A DNA stretch of 36,728 nt from Deltaproteobacteria bacterium (GTDB lineage: Bacteria > Myxococcota > JACPTQ01), in assembly GCA_016192705.1 (NCBI GenBank), contig JACPTQ010000002.1, positions 1-36,728 on the forward strand, given 5' to 3'. Each line of letters starts with the position of its first letter. Position 1 is the first letter of the stretch. Made by a program: the position numbers and the translations under genes. Shown here in pieces: positions 10,063 to 22,165 of this stretch. A model generated the notes under the pieces. It saw only the letters and a program-made list of their open reading frames with translations, was not told the origin of the DNA and made no database searches.

Positions 10063-10806
10063 TCACAACCCTACCACATCTTGGCGACGCACGAAGATGG
10101 AAAGTCCGCCCGGCCAAGGAACCCGGAACCAGTCGCCTTGGGCTTCAATCACGCGCACCTTCCGGCCCGCGCGAACGACGGCCACCGCATCCTCGCGCTC
10201 CGAGGGGCCCAGGCGAAAAGTTGCCTCGCGGGCGACGACGATCGCGGCGCGGTTCCACCTCTCGGCGTAACGTCGGCCACCCCAAAGCGCGAACGCCGCG
10301 ACGAAAAGAAGGAGCGACACGAGCGCGCCAAAAAACAGACCTACACGCAGGCCACGGCGCACGACGAAACGAAGTGCGATGAGAAGGCCAAAGAGCAGCA
10401 GCGAAGAAACCAGCAGCAGGATTTCGCTTTCCGCGGGTGAAAATCGGAGCGGAAAGTCGACCCAAAACGGAACGACCTCCTCGCGCATCTCGTCGCCCGA
10501 CCACGCGCTCCGCTCAAGCTCCTTTTTGACCCAAGAGAGGTTGTGTGCGGCGTCCGCATGCCGTGGGCGAATCCGAAGCGCCTTTTCGTACGCCGCGCGC
10601 GCGCGTGCCCAATCGCCCGTTTTTGCATGCGCGTTGCCCAAGTTGAAAGCGACGTCGGCGTTCGGGACATTTTTGAGGAGCGCTTCGTATTCGGTGGCCG
10701 CGTCGCGGTAATTTCCGGCGAGGTAGGCGCGATTCGCCGATTCAAAGGATGGCGCACCGGCGGCCGCGGCAACGAAGCCGAGCGTAACGAAAAAAGCGGG
10801 CATCAT
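10063..10806 (-). CDS. batE: BatE-like TPR/SH3 membrane protein
   Basis: Last Bat protein of the operon. The ATG at 10806 overlaps the batD stop as ATGA, which decides the start. The 247 residues show a signal-like N-terminus (MMPAFFVTLGFVAAAAG), two tetratricopeptide repeats (FESANRAYLAGNYRDAATEY; DVAFNLGNAHAKTGDWARAR and the next helix pair), two membrane helices (ILLLVSSLLLFGLLIAL and VGLFFGALVSLLLFVAAFAL) and a C-terminal SH3-like domain (ATFRLGPSEREDAVAVVRAG...GDWFRVPWPGG). Bat proteins are linked to aerotolerance and envelope stress in Bacteroides, Leptospira and Francisella, but their biochemical role is unsettled. Confidence 0.85.
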   Translation of the reverse strand: MMPAFFVTLGFVAAAAGAPSFESANRAYLAGNYRDAATEYEALLKNVPNADVAFNLGNAHAKTGDWARARAAYEKALRIRPRHADAAHNLSWVKKELERSAWSGDEMREEVVPFWVDFPLRFSPAESEILLLVSSLLLFGLLIALRFVVRRGLRVGLFFGALVSLLLFVAAFALWGGRRYAERWNRAAIVVAREATFRLGPSEREDAVAVVRAGRKVRVIEAQGDWFRVPWPGGLSIFVRRQDVVGL

Positions 10807-12617
10807 GGTTGGCGAACCTCGCGTGCAAGATCCGCGATCGCGGACAACGCGAGCTGCACCGTTGTCGCGACGACATCCGCTGAAACGGAACCCGGCGCGA
10901 AACGGGCGGACTCGCACACCTCAATGACGCGCGAAAGCTTCGCGGCGCTGGCCGCAGCTGCGCCTAAGTCCATAAGGGCTTGCTCAAGCTCAGCCCGTGT
11001 CAGGGCAACAGGCGACAGGTCCGCGCGATGGTGGACAAACTCGTTCACAACGCGAAGGACAGCCGCGCAAACTTCTGCGGGGCGGTCGGTTCCCCGGGCC
11101 AGACGCGCGAGGGCTCGCTCGGCCGCTCGGGCGGCTCCACGCTGCGCGGTGACATGTGCTCGCGCGGCACGACGACGTAGAGTGGCGAGTGCGATGAGGA
11201 CGACGAGATAGACGGCAGGCGGACCGCTCGCCACGGCGAGAAGGACACTTGGCGACGCGAAGACAGCCTCTCCCTCGGGCGCGATGGGCTCGGTGTGGAT
11301 AGGGCGAAGCGCGTTCATCGGATCAACGACCGGTGCCGCGGGTGCCGGTGCGGGAGCGGAAGGCGCGGGTGCGGACCTCGGCGCCGCTGCGGCCGGCCCA
11401 CCTTCGACTTCGATCGTTCGTGGCGGCGTCGTAACGGATTGATAGCGTCGCGCGTTGGGATCGAACCAGTGGAAAGAAACCGACGGCAGAGCAATGAGTC
11501 CGCCATGCGTCGGGACGATCGAAAAGTCGACGACCTTCCGAAAGGCGATCGAATCGCGCGTTCCGCTGTTGTCCTCGACGACCTTCGGAAAAACGCGGAA
11601 GGACGCGGTTTGCGCGGGCGCCGGAATATCGATTTGCCGTGCGGCGCCTTCTCCAGACAGCGAAACGCGAAGAACGAGGGGCGTGTTCGCGGCGACCTTG
11701 AGCGCAGGGTCGCGCCATTCGGCATCAAACTTGAGGCGGCCAACGTTGGCTTCGACAAATCCCGATGGGCGGCCGTCCGCGGGGAGCGGCCGCACCGTAA
11801 TCGTCACAGGGCGCGAGCTGCGCGAAATTTTCTTGGCGCGAAAGAAACCGAGCGAGACCGCCGTATCGACCGTCATCGCCCCGATTGTCAAGTCGCCCGG
11901 CTTTAGGGGCACAAGAATTTGGCGCTTCACGATGTGAACGTTGAAGCGATGTCCCTCGACGATGCGCTGAGAGCTGGTCCGGTCGGGCGGAACGCGAATC
12001 TCGTCGACGAGGAAATCGCTCGCGACGGGCATCTGCGGAAAGCCCGGCTGCTCCGTGATCCCTGTCGTAACGTTGATGAAGAGCTGCCACTCGACGGTGA
12101 TCGCCTCCCCAACGAAGACATCCGTCTTGGAGGCGACCGTTCGCATAAAAAGCTGGCGATCGAACGTCGGCGCGTCAACGCCTCCCATGCCTCCGCTCAT
12201 AGCGCCCCCGGCCGGCGGCTGCCCCACGCGGATCGTCAGGATGTTGCTTCGAATCGGCTGCCCGCTGACGCGCGCGGTCGCGGGACCTATGGTGTGGACT
12301 CCGGGCGTTCTGGCGCGAAGCGAGTAAGTGTGGGTTTGCGTGTGAACGTTGAGGGTTGGGCCCATCCCCATCTGGATCTTGTAACCGGACGACGTCGACG
12401 GCGAACCGATTAAATCGAAGCCCTGTCGAAAGTCGGGCGCGCGGACGCGGTCGAGCGGCTCGTTCGCGTCTCGCGAAATCTCGAACTCAACCTCGAACTG
12501 CTCACCGACCTGCACAGCGTTACGTTCGCTGCGAAGCGCGAGAGTCGCGGCGCTCGCGGACCCTGAAAACAAGAAAGCAAGAGAAACCACGGAGACACGG
12601 AAGCACCGAGGTTTCAC
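10803..12617 (-). CDS. batD: BatD family membrane protein
   Basis: A large periplasmic, membrane-anchored protein of the BatD (oxygen tolerance) family. The preferred start is the GTG at 12617, giving 604 residues with a good signal peptide (VKPRCFRVSVVSLAFLFSG, cleavage near SASA/AT). An ATG at 12680 would add 21 polar residues. Several beta-sandwich repeats follow (AVQVGEQFEVEFEISRD, TDVFVGEAITVEWQLFINVT, LKPGDLTIGAM), then a Pro/Ala-rich linker (APAPSAPAPAPAAP), one membrane helix (VYLVVLIALATLRR) and a cytoplasmic helical tail. The signal-peptide core is encoded by an R1 repeat copy read in antisense. It overlaps batE downstream and follows batC closely. Confidence 0.88.
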   Translation of the reverse strand: MKPRCFRVSVVSLAFLFSGSASAATLALRSERNAVQVGEQFEVEFEISRDANEPLDRVRAPDFRQGFDLIGSPSTSSGYKIQMGMGPTLNVHTQTHTYSLRARTPGVHTIGPATARVSGQPIRSNILTIRVGQPPAGGAMSGGMGGVDAPTFDRQLFMRTVASKTDVFVGEAITVEWQLFINVTTGITEQPGFPQMPVASDFLVDEIRVPPDRTSSQRIVEGHRFNVHIVKRQILVPLKPGDLTIGAMTVDTAVSLGFFRAKKISRSSRPVTITVRPLPADGRPSGFVEANVGRLKFDAEWRDPALKVAANTPLVLRVSLSGEGAARQIDIPAPAQTASFRVFPKVVEDNSGTRDSIAFRKVVDFSIVPTHGGLIALPSVSFHWFDPNARRYQSVTTPPRTIEVEGGPAAAAPRSAPAPSAPAPAPAAPVVDPMNALRPIHTEPIAPEGEAVFASPSVLLAVASGPPAVYLVVLIALATLRRRAARAHVTAQRGAARAAERALARLARGTDRPAEVCAAVLRVVNEFVHHRADLSPVALTRAELEQALMDLGAAAASAAKLSRVIEVCESARFAPGSVSADVVATTVQLALSAIADLAREVRQP

Positions 12618-12623
12618 GGAGGA
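12581..12623 (+). repeat. R1 repeat copy at the start of batD
   Basis: GAGAAACCACGGAGACACGG continues into AAGCACCGAGGTTTCACGGAGG, matching the R1 core CCACAGAGACACAGAG with G-for-A changes. batD runs on the other strand, so here the repeat is read in antisense and encodes RCFRVSVVSLAF, the hydrophobic core of the signal peptide. A short string ACATTTCTTAAC at 12677-12688 also occurs beside the R1 copy at 19257. Confidence 0.7.
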
Positions 12624-12687
12624 TTCTCCGCGCCATCCTTTCTCGGAATCCCCCTGTCTCCATGACAATTTCACCAACATTTCTTAA

Positions 12688-14748
12688 CTACCACGTGTAC
12701 TTCGAAGTCGGGCGCCCATTCTGGGGCGGGCGCAGCGGCGCGAGTTTCATCGGCCGCTCGGCCTTCTGCGCGGCGTCCTGCTGTTTCTTCGCCTGCTCGG
12801 GGACATTCTTATCCACCGGGTTTTGTTTTGGCTCCGTCTTCTGATCGTCTTTCTTTTGGTCTTGCTTATCGTCCTTTTTCTGGTCCCTTTTTTCGTCTTT
12901 CTTTTGGTCCTTCTTGTCGTCCTTTTTATCCTCTGGCTTTCCCCACGGAAACGCGACGAGCCCAATCCGCGCCGCATCGCCATACTTCGCAAGAACCGCC
13001 TCGACCGTCGCCTTTGCCTTTTCCCACCGCCCATGCCGCTGCATGCTCTCGCTTCGGTCGAGCACGACGACAACGTTAACCGCGCCCGCAAGATCCGGCG
13101 TCTCCTCGCCCGCCACAAGCGGCTTCGAATTGAATCCTCCGAGCGCCGCGAGCTTCGCCAGCATCCGTTCGTCACTTGCCCCCGTAAATCCAACGACCGC
13201 CGTCCGAACGCCCAACTTCGTCAGCTCCTGAATCGACTCTTCCGGCTTTCCGCCGCACGTATCGACTCCATCTGTCACAAGCACAGCAACCGACCGCTCC
13301 GCGCGATTCTTAAACGCCTTGATCCCGGCCGCCTGCTGAAGCGCCGCGCCGAGAGCCGTCTTCTCCGCGGGTTTCTGCGCCGCGACAACTTCACGAATCT
13401 TCGCCGCAGTTTTTTCCGCCGGCTCCACAACAACTTCCGCGGGCCCGCATTCGCCCGACTCCTTCTCGCGATCGTCCCACGGGAAAAGCATGAGCCCAAT
13501 CGACACGCCGTCGGACCACTTCGCATCGACGAGCGCCGTGACAAGCGCCTTCGCGTCGGTCCATTTCTCCTTATGACGCATCGACTGCGATCGATCGACC
13601 GCGACGATGACTTGCACCGGCAACCGATCGCGCGGAATCCCCGTCGTTTCTGGCGCCGCGGAGCCTTCCGCTCCCGCATCTGCAACAGCCCCCGCTTCCT
13701 CTTTCTTATCGCCCTTTTTCTTCTCCTCAGATCTCCGTGCCTCTGTGTCTCCGTGGTTACTCTTTTTCTTTTCTTCTCCCTCCACCGGCGCTAACTCCTT
13801 AATGGCCGCCTTTATCTCCTCGATCTCCGCCGCGCGATAAACCCGGTCGGCCGCGCGCCACCCAATCTTCCCCTTTTCTTGCATCGCCGTGAGTTTCGCC
13901 GGGTCCGCGCCTTTCGCGAACCCAACGACGAGCGTTGGCACCCCCGCGCGCCCAAGCGCCTCGACCGCTGCGCTCCCGTCGCCGCCGCACGTGTCCATCC
14001 CGTCGGTGACCACAACGACCGCCGTGCGATGCGCCTTGCTCGCCGTCGTCTTCAACCCCGCGATAAACCCAAGGGCCTGCGCGAGCGGCGTCTTCTCGGC
14101 TGGCTCCGGCGCATTCGCGAGCGCCTTCTTCACCTCGTCCGCACCGTTCGCCGGTGACACATACAAATTCCCCGCGAGACACTCGCCCTCTTCGACCTTC
14201 TCCTTCTCGTCGTCCTCGCGCTCCTTCTCGCGCTTCAACATCTCCTCGACGCGGAGCGCCACCTCAAGATTCCACTTCGCGTCGCCGTCGTCTGGTCGCG
14301 CCTTGAGAGCCTTCGAAAGCTCATAAATGGCGCGCTCGATGTGCTTCAACCGATCCGCCGCACTGACCGGCGTCTCCTGCCCTTCGGCCGTTTTTTTCTT
14401 CGCGACTCGAGCGAGGTTGACGAGCGTCGTTCCCGCATTGAACGTCGCGTTCGCTCGGTCGGCCGCGTCCGGTAACGCATTCGCCGCCTTCGCAAATTCG
14501 TCCTTCGCTTCCTCAAAGCGCGTTTGGCCGGCGAGCGCGATCCCGCGATTGAACCAAACGACGGGGCTGTTTTTGTGCGTCACGCCCGCGCGATCAAACG
14601 CCTCGAGCGCCTTCGCGTGGTCGCCCTTCGCGACGAGCTCTTTCCCATCCTTATTGTCGCTGTTCGGCCCCTTAAACGGATCCCACGCCATCGCCTGCAC
14701 TGCGAGCAGCACCAACAAACACCTCGCGCTTGTGCCATTCCGATTCAT
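12688..14748 (-). CDS. batC: BatC-like TPR protein with split von Willebrand A domains
   Basis: 686 residues. A signal peptide (ends near AMAWD) and TPR helices (35-165) lead into a charged segment (EKEREDDEKEK), as in BatC. The gene order and the Lys/Asp tail (KKDDKKDQKKDEK and following, 607-637) also fit BatC. Inserted between them is von Willebrand A material in an odd order. Residues 188-320 match only the C-terminal half (GEC, TAVVVVTDGMDTCGGD). Residues 378-556 form a full domain with MIDAS DRSQS (385) and VTDGVDTCGG. Residues 557-603 are only the N-terminal half (VVLDRSESM to IGLVAFPW). The linker at 329-350 (SNHGDTEARRSEEKKK) is R1-derived. The ATG overlaps the batB stop as ATGA. Tandem duplication with unequal exchange is likely; misassembly must be excluded. 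Confidence 0.85.
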   Translation of the reverse strand: MNRNGTSARCLLVLLAVQAMAWDPFKGPNSDNKDGKELVAKGDHAKALEAFDRAGVTHKNSPVVWFNRGIALAGQTRFEEAKDEFAKAANALPDAADRANATFNAGTTLVNLARVAKKKTAEGQETPVSAADRLKHIERAIYELSKALKARPDDGDAKWNLEVALRVEEMLKREKEREDDEKEKVEEGECLAGNLYVSPANGADEVKKALANAPEPAEKTPLAQALGFIAGLKTTASKAHRTAVVVVTDGMDTCGGDGSAAVEALGRAGVPTLVVGFAKGADPAKLTAMQEKGKIGWRAADRVYRAAEIEEIKAAIKELAPVEGEEKKKSNHGDTEARRSEEKKKGDKKEEAGAVADAGAEGSAAPETTGIPRDRLPVQVIVAVDRSQSMRHKEKWTDAKALVTALVDAKWSDGVSIGLMLFPWDDREKESGECGPAEVVVEPAEKTAAKIREVVAAQKPAEKTALGAALQQAAGIKAFKNRAERSVAVLVTDGVDTCGGKPEESIQELTKLGVRTAVVGFTGASDERMLAKLAALGGFNSKPLVAGEETPDLAGAVNVVVVLDRSESMQRHGRWEKAKATVEAVLAKYGDAARIGLVAFPWGKPEDKKDDKKDQKKDEKRDQKKDDKQDQKKDDQKTEPKQNPVDKNVPEQAKKQQDAAQKAERPMKLAPLRPPQNGRPTSKYTW
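13721..13760 (-). repeat. R1 repeat copy inside batC
   Basis: On the minus strand it reads AACCACGGAGACACAGAGGC followed by ACGGAGATCTGAGGAGAAG, close to the carB copy over its full length. It is in frame and encodes NHGDTEARRSEEKK in the linker between the two groups of von Willebrand A sequence. The same reading frame is used as in carB. Confidence 0.85.
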
Positions 14749-15977
14749 CGAGCCGCCCCCGCAACCGCCGATTCTTTTTTCCTACCCCCTTTTTCTTCCT
14801 CCTCCGACCTCCCCAACTGCGCGGCACTGCCGCGACACCAATTTGATTCGTGCAACTCACTTCCATGTTCGGCGCTGGGTTCTCGATCATTTTCGGGTGT
14901 GTCTCTGTGGTTTCTCTTTTCTTCTCTTCTCCTCTCCCTCATCACCGCATCAAGCAAAAACAAAAAAAACGCCGGGAACAAGAAAAACGGAAACCGATCC
15001 TCGTACCTCGTCTCCAGTCGATCCGAGATGTCGCCGCGCGCGAGCTGCTTCAAGCGCGCATCAAGCGCCGCGAGGTCAACGCCTTTCACGGGGTCGACGA
15101 AAAACGCGTCGCCCGCGCCGACCTTCGCGATCCCCGCGAGCGTCGACGTCTTCATCTTCGTCATCACGACTTCGTTCGACTGCTTGTCGCGCAAAACCCC
15201 GGCCGGCGTCCCGTCTTCAAGCGTTTCGGGCACCGGTCCACCAACCTCCGTTCCAAGCCCAACCGCGAAAACTCGAATTCCGCGCTTACGTGCCGCCTCC
15301 GCATCCTTAACGGGGTCTTCGTCGTGCCCTTCGCCGTCGGTCACAAGCACAATGACGCGCGCACGCCGTCCTTCGTCATCCGCCTCGGCGCTGGTCGCGG
15401 GCTCCCTCGCCGCGTCACTTCGCCCCTTCTCGAGCAGCTCCGTCGCCGTTTTGATCGCGATGCTGAGCGACGTCCCGGGCGTCGGTGCGTCGCCAACATC
15501 CATCGTGTCGAGGTAAAGGCGCGCGAGGTGCTGATCGAGTGTCAACGGGCACGCGACGTAGGCATCGCCCGCAAACCCTACAATCCCCACGCGATCGCCC
15601 TCGAGCATGTCGAGAAGGCGCGGCAACTCGTGCTTCGCCCACTGGAGCCGCGAGGGCGCAAGGTCTTGGGCAAGCATCGAGCGCGACAAATCGAGTGCGA
15701 TCGCGACGTCGATCCCGCGTCGCGCAAGGACTTTCTTTTCGCCCTCAGTCTGTGGGCGCGCTGCGGCGAGAACGAGAAGCGCGAGGGCTATCGAAAGGAG
15801 CACCGTTTTCAGTCGCCGGCGCCCTTCGTCAACCGACGCGAGCAGCGGGGCCACCAGCCGTGCGGTTCCAAGCGATGCCGTTAGGCGCTTTCGTCGCGCC
15901 GAGTCGAGAATTCGCGTTCCGACAAACACCGGAACAATCAACAGCCCCAGAAGAACCCATTCGTACTCAAACCTCAC
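14745..15977 (-). CDS. batB: BatB-type von Willebrand A membrane protein
   Basis: 410 residues. Two N-terminal membrane helices (WVLLGLLIVPVFVG; TVLLSIALALLVLAAARPQ) precede a von Willebrand A domain with MIDAS motif DLSRSM (96-101), followed by LVTDGEGHDEDP and a C-terminal helix (FPFFLFPAFFLFLLDAVM). This is the standard Bat/BatA-BatB layout and presumably puts the domain in the periplasm. The last 65 residues are abnormal: a polar tail (RRREEKRNHRDTPEND, then HESNWCRGSAAQLGRSEEEE) encoded by an R1 copy with a fragment of R2 nested in it. GTG is the start, overlapping the batA stop (GTGA); its own stop overlaps the batC start. Confidence 0.9.
   Translation of the reverse strand: MRFEYEWVLLGLLIVPVFVGTRILDSARRKRLTASLGTARLVAPLLASVDEGRRRLKTVLLSIALALLVLAAARPQTEGEKKVLARRGIDVAIALDLSRSMLAQDLAPSRLQWAKHELPRLLDMLEGDRVGIVGFAGDAYVACPLTLDQHLARLYLDTMDVGDAPTPGTSLSIAIKTATELLEKGRSDAAREPATSAEADDEGRRARVIVLVTDGEGHDEDPVKDAEAARKRGIRVFAVGLGTEVGGPVPETLEDGTPAGVLRDKQSNEVVMTKMKTSTLAGIAKVGAGDAFFVDPVKGVDLAALDARLKQLARGDISDRLETRYEDRFPFFLFPAFFLFLLDAVMRERRREEKRNHRDTPENDREPSAEHGSELHESNWCRGSAAQLGRSEEEEKGGRKKESAVAGAAR
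14818..14935 (-). repeat. R1 copy with a nested R2 fragment in the 3' end of batB
   Basis: Read on the minus strand, 14893-14935 gives GAGAAACCACAGAGACACAC (R1). Then come GAGTTGCAC and TTGGTGTCGCGGCAGTGCCG (14818-14841, R2 block 1, also at 79-102), and then a GGAGGAAGAAAAAGG end resembling the R1 tail. The R2 piece therefore appears to sit inside R1. All of it is translated as the BatB tail. Confidence 0.7.
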
Positions 15978-17134
15978 GGAAACGTCCTCCAGCGCGTGAG
16001 CCGCATGAGCTGTTCCAACAGAAGAAGCGCGAGCGCGGGGAACAAGAACCAGACGTACCGCTCCGACCAGCGGTAACTCGCGATGTCCTCGCGTCTCGTC
16101 TTCTCGAGCTTGTTCAAGATGTCATGAAACGTCTTCTCGAGCGCGCTCTTGTCCTGCGCCTCATAAAACTCGCCGCCCGTTTTTTCGCTCACAAGCTTGA
16201 GGAGTGGCGAGCGCGCTGCGGCCACGTCGGCGCCGAGCGCGTCGCCCTTTCCGACGAGGATTGAGTAGATGCGAATGCCGTACATCTTCGCGCGATCCGC
16301 GCCGCCCTCAGGTGCTTCGCCAAAATTGTGTTCGCCGTCGGTGAGGAGAACGATGACGCGGCTTTTTGCATCGCTGGGGCGCAGGCGATTGACGGCCGAC
16401 GTGATCGCCGCGCCGATCGCAGTGCCGTCGCGCATCGAGCCCGCCTTGTAGCGCCCGAGGATGTCGCTCATCTTGAGATCGCTAAGGATGCGTTGCAAGA
16501 CGCTGTGATCGAGCGTGAGCGGGCAGAGCGGGTACGCCTCGCTGTTAAACGCGACGAGGCCGATGCGGTCGGTGCGACGATCCTTGATGAACGCGGCGAT
16601 GACTTCCTTTGCAACGTCGAGACGGTCTTTGCGTGTTAAGCCACCGGTGCGCGTCAAGTCGACGAGATCCGGTGCCTGCATGGAGCCCGAGATGTCGAGT
16701 GCGAGCGCGATGTCGATCCCTTCGTCGGATTTTCGCTCGATGCCGGAAGTTTGTGGACGTGAGAGCGTGAAAACGAGGCCTGCGAGACCAAGGCCACGAA
16801 GAACCTTTGGCATGAAGGCGAGCCGCTGCGCAAGCGAACGACGCGCGACAGAGAGTGCGGTGACGCTTGAAAACTTGAGCCGCGCGGAGCGTTCGCGCTC
16901 AAGCGAGAAGGTGACCCAAAGCGCAAGCGGGACGGCGAGCAGAAGGAGCAGCGCCGCTTCGCGCTCAAAGCGAAAACCGAACGCATCGCGAACGATCGCG
17001 TCGAGCCCGGCGGCCCAAGCGATGAGCAACAAAACGAACGGCAGAAAAATCGCGGCCGGCTTCAGCCACGGAATGCGGGCGCGCGCGATTTCGTCGAACG
17101 CCAGTCGACTCCGCCATTTCGCGGCGACATTCAC
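15974..17134 (-). CDS. batA: BatA-type von Willebrand A membrane protein
   Basis: 386 residues. Hydrophobic segments at about 27-45 and 60-77 and a weaker one at 112-124 precede a von Willebrand A domain with MIDAS DISGSM (147-152), then VLLTDGEHNFGEAPEG and a C-terminal membrane helix (YVWFLFPALALLLLEQLM). Family members bind a divalent cation through the MIDAS and are thought to form a complex with other Bat proteins at the inner membrane. GAGGAG precedes the ATG. The gap of 94 bp to the upstream gene is the largest inside the bat cluster and holds no gene. The stop overlaps the batB GTG. Confidence 0.92.
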   Translation of the reverse strand: MNVAAKWRSRLAFDEIARARIPWLKPAAIFLPFVLLLIAWAAGLDAIVRDAFGFRFEREAALLLLLAVPLALWVTFSLERERSARLKFSSVTALSVARRSLAQRLAFMPKVLRGLGLAGLVFTLSRPQTSGIERKSDEGIDIALALDISGSMQAPDLVDLTRTGGLTRKDRLDVAKEVIAAFIKDRRTDRIGLVAFNSEAYPLCPLTLDHSVLQRILSDLKMSDILGRYKAGSMRDGTAIGAAITSAVNRLRPSDAKSRVIVLLTDGEHNFGEAPEGGADRAKMYGIRIYSILVGKGDALGADVAAARSPLLKLVSEKTGGEFYEAQDKSALEKTFHDILNKLEKTRREDIASYRWSERYVWFLFPALALLLLEQLMRLTRWRTFP

Positions 17135-17228: not shown

Positions 17229-18320
17229 TCACAGTCCCCTCGCGGCGGTGCCTTCGGGCGATGTTGGCGGTGGTGGTGGCGGCGGCGACGCCGGGGACTC
17301 ACCCGTGGGCGGCCGATCGGCCGGCGACGCGTTCGCCTGAGTTGCCGGAGGTTCCGGGAGTTCGCGCGTCGCCTCAATGAAAGCGCGCACCTCGTCGATC
17401 GTTGCCGCCCCATCGGCCGCGGTCGGCTTCATCTTCGCAAACTTCACGAGGTCAGCCTCCCCGAGCAGCGATTCGACGGTTGCCATTTGGAGCCCGCGCT
17501 GTGCACCGAGGGCCGCCACGGCGCGCAAAAGCTCACGCGTCGTGCACTCGAGCGCCTCGAAGTGATAACGGTTGCCGAGGTACTCGCGGAAAACGTCGCC
17601 CACGCGAACGTAAAACTCTTTCACCCGCTCGACCGCGAAAAGGTTCTCGAGCTCGATGGCGTCGAGCTTTTCGTAGGCAATTTCGTGCGCAGGTCGGGGC
17701 GGCGGCGCGGGCGCGAGATCGGCACCTCGCTTTCGACCCAAGCGGTACGCAACGCGAACGATTCCCGCGATGAGGAGGAGCGAGCCAAGGGCGATGGCGA
17801 CGTAGAGCAGTGTCCAATTCTCCTCGATAAGATCGAGCGGCGGTCGGAGCGACTTGAGCGCCGGGTCCTTAACATCGGCGCCGATCGTTGGCAGAACCGC
17901 GATCTTCACGCGTTGCACCGCGACGGGCTTGGGTCCGAGAAGCGAAAGCTCGGGCGTCAAAAACGCTCCCAATCGATACGCCGCGATCTTGAGGGTAAAC
18001 GTTGAACCATCCGGCGTCTTCGCGAAATTGCGCTCGAGGATGTCGAAGTCACCCCACTTTTCGGCGCCGGCGACCTCGGGCGGCATAATGTAGGCGGCGT
18101 CAGCGGCGTGTTTCAGCGGAATCGTGAGCGTGATGACGTCGCCAATTTTCACGCTGTCGGCAGACAACGCGGGGCGCACGACGGCTGACGGTGCAACGGG
18201 GGCCTTGCGCCGTGCGGATGCGGGTGCCGGAGTGGTTGCGGAAGCGGCTGCGGATGCGGAAGCGGTTGCGGTTGCGGAAACCGCGGCGGCCAGCGCGAAC
18301 GTGAGCGCCAGATTCACCAT
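17229..18320 (-). CDS. DUF4381/BatD-like single-span membrane protein of the Bat operon
   Basis: 363 residues from the ATG at 18320, which overlaps the preceding DUF58 gene by 7 bp. Layout: signal peptide (MVNLALTFALAAAVSA), a Thr/Ala/Ser-rich segment made by a hexamer microsatellite, a beta-sandwich domain (VKIGDVITLTIPLKHA...WGDFDILERNFAKTPDGSTFTLKIAAYRLG), one membrane helix (LLYVAIALGSLLLIAGIVRVAY) and a cytoplasmic helical domain (FYVRVGDVFREYLGNRYHFEALECTTREL), ending in a Pro-rich tail (SPPPPPPPTSPEG). Proteins of this plan lie between DUF58 and batA in many bat clusters. The exact role is unknown. Confidence 0.8.
   Translation of the reverse strand: MVNLALTFALAAAVSATATASASAAASATTPAPASARRKAPVAPSAVVRPALSADSVKIGDVITLTIPLKHAADAAYIMPPEVAGAEKWGDFDILERNFAKTPDGSTFTLKIAAYRLGAFLTPELSLLGPKPVAVQRVKIAVLPTIGADVKDPALKSLRPPLDLIEENWTLLYVAIALGSLLLIAGIVRVAYRLGRKRGADLAPAPPPRPAHEIAYEKLDAIELENLFAVERVKEFYVRVGDVFREYLGNRYHFEALECTTRELLRAVAALGAQRGLQMATVESLLGEADLVKFAKMKPTAADGAATIDEVRAFIEATRELPEPPATQANASPADRPPTGESPASPPPPPPPTSPEGTAARGL
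18212..18288 (-). repeat. Degenerate GCGGNN hexamer microsatellite in the DUF4381-like gene
   Basis: A run of GCGGAAGCGGCTGCGGATGC-type hexamers on the plus strand (about 12 degenerate units). It encodes the ATATASASAAASATTPAPAS segment behind the signal peptide. The same hexamer class occurs at 35253-35335 and 36148-36300. Confidence 0.75.
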
Positions 18321-19189
18321 CGCCGCGCCCGTCGCAAAAAGAACCCGACGATCGCCTGCACAAACGGCGCGCCCGTGCGCAAATCGAGGGTGTCGCATTT
18401 GAGTTTGCGAAAGAGCTGGTCCCGCGCCTCGCGCGCCCGCTTGACCTCGCGCACGACGTCGTCGCGCACACCCGCATCGCTCGTGTCGATCTGCACGAGC
18501 TCACCCGTCTCCGCATCCTCGACCGTCAACAGCCCGACGTCGGGCAACTCCTCCTCAATCTTGTCCGCCAAAATCACCGGGATGAGGTCGTGTTTTTCGT
18601 GAGCGATGCGAAACGCTTTCTCGTACCCCGTCGCCATGAAATCCGAGATGAGAAACGCGACGCTCTTTCGCTTCGACACGCGCGACAGATACGACAGCCC
18701 TGCGTTCAAGTCGGTGCGCCGACTCACGGGCCTGTGATTGAGCACTTCCGAAATCGTGCGCAGAATGTGCTTCGACCCCTTCTTGGGCGGGACGACTTTC
18801 TCGACGCGATCCGTGAAAAGGATGAGCCCCACGCGATCGCCATTCTTCATCGCCGAAAAACCAAACAGCGCGACCAGCTCGGCCATCAGCTCGGCCTTCG
18901 ATTGTTCGCGCGTCCCAAACCACTGCGACCCACTCGCATCGACGAGCAGCATCACCGTCAACTCGCGCTCCTCGACAAACTGCTTCACGTACGCGTTGTT
19001 CATGCGCGCGCTGACGTTCCAGTCGATGACGCGAATGTCATCGCCCGGCTGGTACTCGCGCACCTCCGAAAACGACATCCCGCGTCCCTTGAAAACCGAG
19101 TGGTATTGCCCCGCGATCTGCTCATTCACGAGCCGCGTCGTGACGATCTCGATCTTCCGAATTCTCTTCAGCAGTTCCTTTGTAACCAT
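18314..19189 (-). CDS. DUF58 domain protein
   Basis: 291 residues, cytoplasmic, with the DUF58 signature GRGMSFSEVREYQPGDDIR followed by VIDWNVSAR (36-63) and a von Willebrand A-like fold with a degenerate MIDAS (LLVDASGSQWFG). It lies directly behind moxR, as in nearly all MoxR-Bat clusters, and is thought to work with the MoxR ATPase. Start ATG at 19189; no strong ribosome-binding site. The 139 bp between this gene and moxR contain a two-armed R1 element that would form a hairpin in the shared mRNA. Its end overlaps the next gene by 7 bp. Confidence 0.92.
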   Translation of the reverse strand: MVTKELLKRIRKIEIVTTRLVNEQIAGQYHSVFKGRGMSFSEVREYQPGDDIRVIDWNVSARMNNAYVKQFVEERELTVMLLVDASGSQWFGTREQSKAELMAELVALFGFSAMKNGDRVGLILFTDRVEKVVPPKKGSKHILRTISEVLNHRPVSRRTDLNAGLSYLSRVSKRKSVAFLISDFMATGYEKAFRIAHEKHDLIPVILADKIEEELPDVGLLTVEDAETGELVQIDTSDAGVRDDVVREVKRAREARDQLFRKLKCDTLDLRTGAPFVQAIVGFFLRRARRW

Positions 19190-19328: not shown

Positions 19329-20357
19329 TCACGGCACTTCGACGTTCTCAAAAATCCGCTTCACGATCGCTTCGCTCGTCAGCTCCTCGGCCTCCGCCTC
19401 GTACGTCAAGATCACGCGATGCCGCAAAATATCTGGCCCAATCGCCTTCACATCTTCCGGCGTCACGTACCCACGGTGCCGCAAAAAAGCATGCGCCCGC
19501 GCCGCGATGTTCAAGTAAATCGTTGCGCGCGGTGACGCCCCGTACTGAATGTAGTTCTCGATTTCCTTTAGCCCATACTCAGCCGGCCGCCGCGTCGCAA
19601 ACACGATGTTCAAAATGTAGTCCTTAATTTTTTCATCGAGGTAAATCTGCCCGACCACCTCGCGCGCCCGCGCAATCTCCGCAGGCCCAACCACCGCATC
19701 GATTCGCGGCTCAAACCCGCTCGTCATGCGGTCCATGATTTCGCGCTCCTCGTCCTTCGTCGGGTACCCAACCTTAATCATGAGCATGAACCGGTCGACC
19801 TGCGCCTCCGGCAAAGGGTAAGTCCCCTCCTGTTCAATCGGGTTTTGCGTCGCCATGACGAGAAACGGGCTTTCGAGCTTGAACGTCTCTTCGCCGATCG
19901 TCACCTGGTGCTCTTGCATCGCTTCGAGGAGCGCGCTCTGCACCTTCGCCGGCGCGCGGTTGATTTCGTCGGCGAGCACGAAGTTCGTGAAGATCGGCCC
20001 CTTTCGCACCGAAAACGTCGCTTCGCGCTGGTTGTAAATCATCGTGCCGACAAGATCCGCCGGCAACAAATCGGGTGTGAACTGAATCCGCTGAAACTTG
20101 AGCTGCAACGCCTGTGCGACCGTCTTAATCGTTGTTGTCTTCGCGAGCCCCGGCACGCCTTCGAGGAGCACATGCCCGCCGGTGAGCAACCCAATCAGCA
20201 CGCGCTCAAGCATCGCGCGCTGCCCGACGATCACCTTCGACACTTCGGCGAGCAACCGGTCAACGAACGCGCTTTCGTTTCGCACCATCTCGTTCAACGA
20301 ACGTACGTCGCCCATCATTCCACCACTTCGCACCGCGCTTTCGATCGCTTCAGGCAT
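19329..20357 (-). CDS. moxR: MoxR family AAA+ ATPase
   Basis: 342 residues. A chaperone-like AAA+ ATPase that usually acts on von Willebrand A proteins encoded beside it. Walker A GVPGLAKTT, Walker B FVLADEINRAPAKVQSALLE, sensor region MATQNPIEQEGTYPLPEAQVDRF and the C-terminal lid domain are all present, and the length is normal. GGAGG precedes the ATG at a good distance, supporting 20357 over the Met at 20318. It is the first gene of the bat cluster and lies 67 bp behind the channel gene, which runs in the same direction, so an internal promoter is possible but not demonstrated. Confidence 0.95.
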   Translation of the reverse strand: MPEAIESAVRSGGMMGDVRSLNEMVRNESAFVDRLLAEVSKVIVGQRAMLERVLIGLLTGGHVLLEGVPGLAKTTTIKTVAQALQLKFQRIQFTPDLLPADLVGTMIYNQREATFSVRKGPIFTNFVLADEINRAPAKVQSALLEAMQEHQVTIGEETFKLESPFLVMATQNPIEQEGTYPLPEAQVDRFMLMIKVGYPTKDEEREIMDRMTSGFEPRIDAVVGPAEIARAREVVGQIYLDEKIKDYILNIVFATRRPAEYGLKEIENYIQYGASPRATIYLNIAARAHAFLRHRGYVTPEDVKAIGPDILRHRVILTYEAEAEELTSEAIVKRIFENVEVP

Positions 20358-20424: not shown

Positions 20425-21948
20425 CTAAAAATTGAAGAACTTCTTGATCTTGTTCAAAAGCGACGACGAATGCGATCGCAGCGCGTCGTCACCTGCGGCG
20501 CCCAACTCCGCCCGCTTCCCCGCAAGCTCAAGCTGTCGCTTCGCGATAACGTCCGAAATCCGACCCGCGATATCCGGCTGCTTCTGGAACAGCTCCGCGA
20601 ACGGCTCCTTGCCGATCATGATCATTTCGCAATCGGTCGCCGCCACAACCGTCGCCGTGCGCCGTTCGCCCGTCATGACCGACATTTCGCCGAAGAAATT
20701 TCCCGGGCCGAGCGTGGCCACGACCGCGCCGCCGACGCGCACTTCAACTTTCCCCTCGGACATCAAGAAGAACGACTCGCCCTCGTCGCCTTCGCGAATG
20801 ATGGCCTCGCCCCGCGCGAAAACGAGACGCCGTGCGGAGTTCGCAAGCGCGTGAATCTCCTCGTCGGGCAAAACTTTCACGAAGTCGATCGAGTTCAGCG
20901 CCTTGATGCGCGCCTGCACGCGCCCCGCGAAAATCTCCTCCTCGGATTTCACTTCGTGCATGTAAACGTTGCGGATCGGCCACGGGATCTCGATTCGCGC
21001 GCGTTTGAAGTTGTACCAAACCGCCGTGCGCACCGCGTTTTCGACGTCGTGATAGCGCCGGAACTCGTCGATCCAAACTTCGATGAGGTACTCGATCGAT
21101 GAATCCCCAAATTTATCGGCGATGACTTTGGGCGGCGGATCCTTTACGACGTTTTCGAGATCCGCCACGGCCGCGAGAATCACGTCTCGCACGCGATTGG
21201 GAGGCACGCCATAATCGACGCCGACGTAAATCTTCCGCTTCATCGATGGCCCAGGTTTTGTGTGGTTTTGAAGCACATCGCGGTTGATTTGGTTGTTCGG
21301 GACGACGACGCGCTCGTTGTCGCGCGTGATGAGCCGCGTCGCCCGCCATGAAACCTGTTCGACGCGCCCGAGGCGCCCCTGAAACGTCACCCAGTCGCCA
21401 ATTTCGAACGGCTTTTCCATCTGAATCGCGAGCCCCGCGATCACGTTCGACAAAACGTCTTGAAGCGCGAGGCCGATGACGGCGGTGAGAATCGCGGACG
21501 TCGTGAAAAGCTGCGTGACATCGACACCCGCATTGCCGAGGATGACGAAAACGAGAACGATGAAGACGACCGACATTCCGATGTCGCGAAAAATCGATGG
21601 AATTTCAATCTTCTTTCGATGCGACAAAAAGAAATCGAGAAAGAGCGACGAAAACGCCTTGAGCGCGGCGTACGCGAGAACAAACATCATCGCCGCTTCG
21701 AACGGCGTCAGTTTGCCGTCGACCTTGCCGTGGTGGTCGCCCGCGTGCGGCAGGAGCGAATCAACGATTGCGAGGATGAGGAAGAGCGCGAACGCGAGAA
21801 TGGCGCGCGCGAGCTTTTTCGCGATGCGATCGTTTTGTGTCTTGAGCCGCGCGAGCACGAGCAGCGGAATGAGCGCGACGCTGACGATGACACCGGGCAG
21901 CGTGGCACCGGAAAACAGGTCGCTGACGAACTTTTCAACAGGTCCCAT
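20425..21948 (-). CDS. MscS-family channel with C-terminal cyclic-nucleotide-binding domain (bCNG type)
   Basis: 507 residues from the ATG at 21948, the first Met before the first hydrophobic stretch. Membrane helices at the start (LPGVIVSVALIPLLVLARL, ILAFALFLILAIV, MMFVLAYAALKAF, MSVVFIVLVFVIL) are followed by the MscS pore helix and beta domain (LFTTSAILTAVIGLALQDVL, MEKPFEIGDWVTFQG, VVVPNNQI), and a C-terminal CNB domain with the phosphate-binding cassette FFGEMSVMTGERRTATV, including the Glu and Arg that bind cyclic nucleotides. This matches the bacterial cyclic-nucleotide-gated subfamily of MscS, in which ligand rather than tension is thought to gate the pore. It is divergent from a stand-alone CNB protein gene. 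The ligand is not known. Confidence 0.9.
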   Translation of the reverse strand: MGPVEKFVSDLFSGATLPGVIVSVALIPLLVLARLKTQNDRIAKKLARAILAFALFLILAIVDSLLPHAGDHHGKVDGKLTPFEAAMMFVLAYAALKAFSSLFLDFFLSHRKKIEIPSIFRDIGMSVVFIVLVFVILGNAGVDVTQLFTTSAILTAVIGLALQDVLSNVIAGLAIQMEKPFEIGDWVTFQGRLGRVEQVSWRATRLITRDNERVVVPNNQINRDVLQNHTKPGPSMKRKIYVGVDYGVPPNRVRDVILAAVADLENVVKDPPPKVIADKFGDSSIEYLIEVWIDEFRRYHDVENAVRTAVWYNFKRARIEIPWPIRNVYMHEVKSEEEIFAGRVQARIKALNSIDFVKVLPDEEIHALANSARRLVFARGEAIIREGDEGESFFLMSEGKVEVRVGGAVVATLGPGNFFGEMSVMTGERRTATVVAATDCEMIMIGKEPFAELFQKQPDIAGRISDVIAKRQLELAGKRAELGAAGDDALRSHSSSLLNKIKKFFNF

Positions 21949-21984
21949 CGGCGCAAAGGATATGGGCGCGCCCCGCGATTGACA

Positions 21985-22165
21985 AGACCCCTTCATCCCC
22001 GGTTAAGCGGTTCGTTCGCTCTCAAGCGTGAGGGTCGACAGGGGCCCGCTTCGGCGCGCCGACGTCCTCGGGTCTGATTTAAGACGTGCGATCAATCCAA
22101 GGTTCAGAGGCAAGCGAAAGCTCGGAGGGCCCAGCCGATATCGCGCTGCAGACCCTGCGGATGCG
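21985..22165 (-). repeat. R2 repeat copy b upstream of the channel gene
   Basis: Read on the minus strand it repeats the carB upstream region in the same order: block at 22160-22099 (matches 119-180 with few changes), the 32 identical bases at 22077-22046, and the terminal motif CCGCTTAACCGGGGAT at 22010-21995. It ends about 50 bp before the channel start codon and points the same way as the gene, as in the carB copy. Confidence 0.85.

Follow-up and report, generated by a model that had tools for sequence, protein, structure and literature searches.

A BatC protein with von Willebrand A half-domains in permuted order on either side of a complete domain

Introduction

BatC normally serves as a plain scaffold in the Bat (Bacteroides aerotolerance) membrane complex, which is widespread. 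In von Willebrand A (vWA) domains, a DxSxS motif, a Thr and an Asp together form the MIDAS. A vWA domain and a TPR part within one chain are found in Leptospira biflexa, where BatB and BatC are fused (PMC3557215), and three of the loci that we sampled (L030, L038 and L045) encode BatB-BatC fusions as well. In these fusions, a complete BatB vWA lies ahead of the TPR part, whereas in the protein described here vWA pieces of a secreted type lie past the TPR part and batB is a separate gene. The protein resembles ordinary BatC in its place between batB and batD, its TPR part, its charged tail and its C-terminal Trp, but the post-TPR part of ordinary BatC has no vWA.

Two further systems share single traits with this protein. 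Swaposin, an insert in plant aspartic proteases, arose from tandem saposin domains (PMC3320104); the likeness would lie in an out-of-register piece of a tandem array inside another protein, with swapped half-domains. However, the fold is a different one, and swaposin consists of one C-half followed by one N-half, whereas here a whole domain stands between the halves. PTMP1 of the mussel byssus (4cn8) carries two vWA domains in one chain, but its sequence-matched vWA is contiguous (chain residues 51-216) and not split. Among the papers that a literature search brought up, none describes a circularly permuted vWA; the one that combines both terms deals with a permuted GTPase beside an ordinary vWA.

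Results

A vWA-bearing BatC in an intact bat operon

The window, a stretch of 36,728 nucleotides, is an entire contig (C52) of a 5.2-Mb assembly of 88 contigs with 96.65% completeness. It contains an intact bat operon on the reverse strand, which reads in the order moxR (AAA ATPase, 19329..20357), a DUF58 gene (18314..19189), a gene for an unnamed membrane protein, batA (15974..17134), batB (14745..15977), batC (12688..14748), batD (10803..12680) and a gene for a BatE-like protein with TPR and SH3 domains (10063..10917). The assignments come from Pfam, joined by NCBIfam for the vWA proteins BatA and BatB; BatD matched PF13584 with 106 bits. The batC frame of 686 codons is uninterrupted, its ATG start overlaps the batB stop, and the batD frame starts 7 nt past its end. 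A gene for an MscS-type mechanosensitive channel fused to a cyclic-nucleotide-binding domain (20425-21996) adjoins the moxR end of the operon.

We assigned the 686-aa frame to batC because it lies between batB and batD in an operon with moxR, DUF58 and bat genes, has a TPR part and carries a charged tail ending in W. Residues 1-186 (14191..14748, reverse strand) comprise a putative signal peptide and a TPR region that is orthologous to ordinary BatC, as indicated by a Pfam TPR_2 match at residues 64-94 and by a BatC TPR profile (9e-38). The putative signal region contains a hydrophobic stretch, CLLVLLAVQAMA, recognized by eye, and no 19-residue window reaches a mean hydropathy of 1.5. At the other end, residues 603-686 (12691..12942, reverse strand) form the charged tail, which we counted as a BatC tail even though it ends in SKYTW and not in EKDW or similar, as in the relatives. 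The DNA of this tail is a tandem repeat with a 12-nt period and about 7 units (12833-12939). BatC proteins usually, although not exclusively, have no folded domain past the TPR part, and this one has three vWA stretches there. We take these pieces as a departure within the BatC family and not as grounds for exclusion from it.

For comparison, bat regions were sampled broadly from the 157 genomes in which BatD was found and were combined with earlier loci, giving 63 other distinct BatC proteins, a few of them from other phyla. None of the 63 carries a vWA past the TPR part, and the permuted plan, for which the initial annotation knew of no described precedent, is thus absent from every other BatC examined. 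No second protein of this layout turned up when 195 genomes from the phylum were searched directly. In 62 of the 63 proteins, the post-TPR part measures 33-234 aa, compared with 505 aa in the vWA-bearing BatC and 709 aa in the remaining one (L011). The latter is a BatB-BatC fusion of 1361 aa (L011:374-4456) from a record labelled Klebsiella pneumoniae, which its gene content does not suggest. Its post-TPR part consists of a repeated cysteine-containing module unrecognized by Pfam, followed by the usual charged tail with a KDW end. L011 and the vWA-bearing BatC together indicate that the post-TPR site took up a foreign array at least twice.

Two half-domains that tile one vWA

A Pfam scan detected three vWA stretches in BatC, and the whole protein scored 94 bits against a PF00092 cut-off of 23.8. 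We then used a profile of 40 vWA domains from other proteins, with this BatC left out. Residues 187-319 aligned to profile positions 54-189 (74 bits), residues 379-540 to positions 3-166 (107 bits) and residues 558-607 to positions 3-53 (30 bits). Both searches agree with the order proposed from the sequence at the outset, namely C-half, whole domain, N-half. The first piece, C1 (residues 187-320; 13789..14190, reverse strand), runs from GEC through TDGMDTCGG to the last helix. It is followed by a flexible linker, charged and Ala-rich (residues 321-377; 13618..13788, reverse strand), with low pLDDT. The complete domain consists of an N-half, N2 (residues 378-424; 13477..13617, reverse strand), with a DRSQS MIDAS motif and an FPW end, and a C-half, C2 (residues 432-556; 13081..13455, reverse strand). 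The last piece, N3 (residues 557-602; 12943..13080, reverse strand), again has a MIDAS motif (DRSESM) and an FPW end, and there is almost no linker between C2 and N3.

C1 (positions 54-189) and N3 (positions 3-53) tile exactly one vWA, with neither gap nor overlap. The C-half stands ahead of the N-half to which it is complementary on the family profile, which is the arrangement of a circular permutation. Both halves are cut at the same place, the loop of the β2-β3 hairpin between FPW and GEC. When N3 and C1 were joined into one string, the relatives' profile gave 121 bits, against 112 bits for N2C2. N2-C2 matches PF00092, has the MIDAS elements DxSxS, T and D in normal order, and has a hairpin of a length within the range of natural relatives.

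Both N-halves retain the DxSxS of the MIDAS (D385/S387/S389 in N2, D564/S566/S568 in N3), and both C-halves retain its Thr and Asp (T220/D249 in C1, T464/D493 in C2). The first half-domain had been described as lacking a MIDAS; this is correct for DxSxS, but T220 and D249 are in place. Metal binding at these sites is predicted from the motif. Also retained are the family cysteines (C190/C254 in C1, C434/C498 in C2), which do not vary among the aligned relatives; the protein has just one more cysteine, at residue 10 within the signal region.

C1 and N3 are not obviously decayed, judging from their sequences. An unlikely alternative is that the complete vWA alone is functional, with C1 and N3 as leftovers from an array that was rearranged; they would then be either unfolded or no more than tolerated by a flexible linker. 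The layout occurs once, BatC linkers are of low complexity and vary widely in length, and the predicted confidence of C1 does not depend on N3 (see below), all of which would suit leftovers. Against this, both halves retain the residues that are strongest in the family. C1 has also kept an open frame and a score of 74 bits despite its ancient divergence from C2 (53% DNA identity), which is unlike decaying sequence.

The copies are too diverged for a collapsed repeat

C1 and C2 share 41% of their residues, N2 and N3 about 47%. The alignment scores were 186 for C1/C2 and 97 for N2/N3, compared with best scores of 74 and 45, respectively, in 300 shuffles. These scores bear out the initial observation of two units that start with GEC, pass through TDGxDTCGG and reach a MIDAS (DRSxSM) and FPW. 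At the DNA level, C1/C2 are 53% and N2/N3 58% identical, and their longest common words are 13 and 10 bp.

Such a layout could in principle arise as an artefact, if a set of complete vWA domains had been collapsed or joined into a chimera during assembly. The assembly is fragmented (88 contigs), and it is the sole genome with such a gene. However, copies that are 53-58% identical, with common DNA words of at most 13 bp, should not confuse assemblers, both junctions are in frame within an intact operon, and both cuts fall in the same structural loop. A collapsed repeat is very unlikely given this divergence, and we rejected it; an artefact of any of these kinds is very improbable. Neither finding that would have spoken against the layout from the start turned up: the copies are diverged rather than collapsed, and no relative among the 63 BatC proteins has complete domains in this place.

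The inserted domains resemble secreted, cysteine-bearing vWA proteins

With a vWA profile seeded with the complete domain, secreted Cys-vWA proteins scored up to 190 bits, many of them being inside the profile, compared with 21-39 bits for Bat vWAs. On these sequence comparisons, the inserted domains are assigned to a secreted, cysteine-bearing, CglB-like vWA family and not to BatA/BatB. The two cysteines and the FP hairpin are common to the BatC pieces and their secreted relatives. NF033757 (CglB, adventurous gliding motility lipoprotein) is among the two best NCBIfam matches, but with 39 bits against a cut-off of 200 the protein is not CglB, and its vWA pieces are permuted and embedded. Two sources were rejected: duplication from BatA or BatB, given the scores above, and a recent copy of another gene of the same genome, since its best vWAs are merely 29-36% identical. 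Among the loci covered by this comparison, no donor protein with a tandem array of CglB-like secreted vWA domains was found.

In a tree with 39 relatives, C1 and C2 were sisters (98/93), and so were N2 and N3, weakly (83/58, few columns), as expected for an internal array. C1 and C2 sit on long branches and have an unusual composition, which keeps the tree from resolving the exact donor. The sister pairs are best explained by an internal array that would go back to an old duplication and have been excised out of register.

The junction between the TPR part and C1 and the hairpin of the complete domain are 84% similar over 19 nt (family D9), and the charged stretches ahead of both GEC motifs are correspondingly alike (DDEKEKVEEGEC / DDREKES-GEC). 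A recombination site would account for this similarity, as would duplication of a [linker-C-N] unit. Duplication of this kind would suit two tandem permuted vWAs, a C1-N2 pair that spans the linker and a C2-N3 pair, if one permuted [C-N] insert had later been duplicated with a bit of charged linker. The tandem repetition of the GEC...FPW units and the direct run of C2 into N3 also suit it. As a present fold, we consider it unlikely: the N2-C2 hairpin is of natural length, and N2-C2 is predicted as a normal domain with pLDDT above 90, although the alignment used favours that pairing. It may nonetheless describe the history correctly while today's protein folds as N2-C2 and C1-N3.

Structure prediction and pairing of the halves

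AlphaFold2 was run on residues 178-612 with relatives aligned on N2-C2 only and none on C1 or N3. The pLDDT exceeded 90 across much of N2-C2, was about 75-84 for most of C1 and 78-86 for N3, and fell below 50 in the linker. The last helix of C2 was missing or very short in the model, and N3 begins right there. In a control without N3, the pLDDT of C1 was unchanged; C1 lost the short β3, had a shorter β4 and gained β6. Loss of β3 and shortening of β4 are what loss of pairing with β2(N3) and β1(N3) would give. Structure prediction thus yielded halves of moderate to good quality (pLDDT mostly 75-86), but since the confidence of C1 is independent of N3, it is no proof that the two pair. A PDB search by single sequence gave no match, and the best PDB fold match with Foldseek was PTMP1 (4cn8).

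Pairing could instead occur intermolecularly, with N3 supplying the part that C1 lacks in the next BatC molecule, which would give dimers or head-to-tail chains. The exact complementarity of the halves and their location at opposite ends of the insert would suit this, but with a flexible linker of 57 aa a single chain can readily close on itself. We regard pairing between chains as improbable. Exchange of half-domains that joins BatC chains or switches them between open and closed states, and thereby provides metal-dependent Bat assembly by domain complementation, is likewise a long shot.

A dispersed repeat in and around batC

A repeat of the type CCACRGAGACACRGAGGCACRGAG (up to 2 mismatches) has 28 copies in the genome, compared with 0 for the reversed control pattern. 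One copy, CCACGGAGACACAGAGGCACGGAG, lies in the C1-to-N2 linker (13733..13756, reverse strand) and is read in frame as part of NHGDTEARR. Further copies in the window are at 12587-12610 and 1748-1771, and several copies are intragenic and translated. The start of the batD frame (12587-12680) overlaps a copy, read as SVKPRCFRVSVV, so the true batD start may be further downstream. BatB has a C-terminal extension past its last membrane segment (EKRNHRDTPENDREPS..., 14745-14900), which also looks derived from this repeat.

Discussion

We see an even chance that this BatC is functional and carries part of a tandem vWA array that was cut out of register, with C1 and N3 closing in cis as a permuted vWA. 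The array, of secreted, cysteine-containing vWA domains, would have donated this slice to the linker that separates the TPR part from the charged tail. N2-C2 would fold as a normal vWA, and C1, on its flexible 57-aa linker, would close onto N3 of the same chain. The second, circularly permuted vWA formed in this way would take the DxSxS of its MIDAS from N3 and the Thr and Asp from C1, with its new ends in the β2-β3 hairpin loop. Each C-half would contain a disulphide, and there would be two MIDAS sites. With export to the periplasm, BatC would change from a TPR adaptor into one that bears, in the periplasm and next to BatA and BatB, two domains for metal-dependent ligand binding. We infer cis pairing, metal binding, export and function.

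The complementarity of C1 and N3, the kept residues and the open frame in an intact bat operon count in favour of this explanation. So do the pLDDT of C1 and N3, reached with no relative aligned to them, the short β3 and longer β4 of C1 in the model with N3, the sister pairs in the tree, and the higher scores of secreted Cys-vWA proteins than of Bat vWAs. Against it count the steady pLDDT of C1 without N3, the β6 strand of C1 that appears in the N3-less model alone, the absence of the last helix of C2, a possible sign of decay, and the occurrence of the layout in one genome only. The initial idea that the halves complete each other is therefore sound in that they match exactly, while their pairing goes beyond what the models show. 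Likewise, a Bat assembly with three metal-binding domain types had been envisaged; the third type would come from the secreted CglB-like family, with metal binding predicted from its motif.

Should C1 and N3 indeed complete one another, this chain would combine a naturally occurring, circularly permuted vWA with an unpermuted sister copy and would represent an intermediate on the way to permutation through duplication. The BatC linker would then also be revealed as a place for installing accessory binding domains, a second example being L011 with its unrelated repeat array. Such insertions would offer a way of learning what is bound by the Bat complex, of which little is understood.
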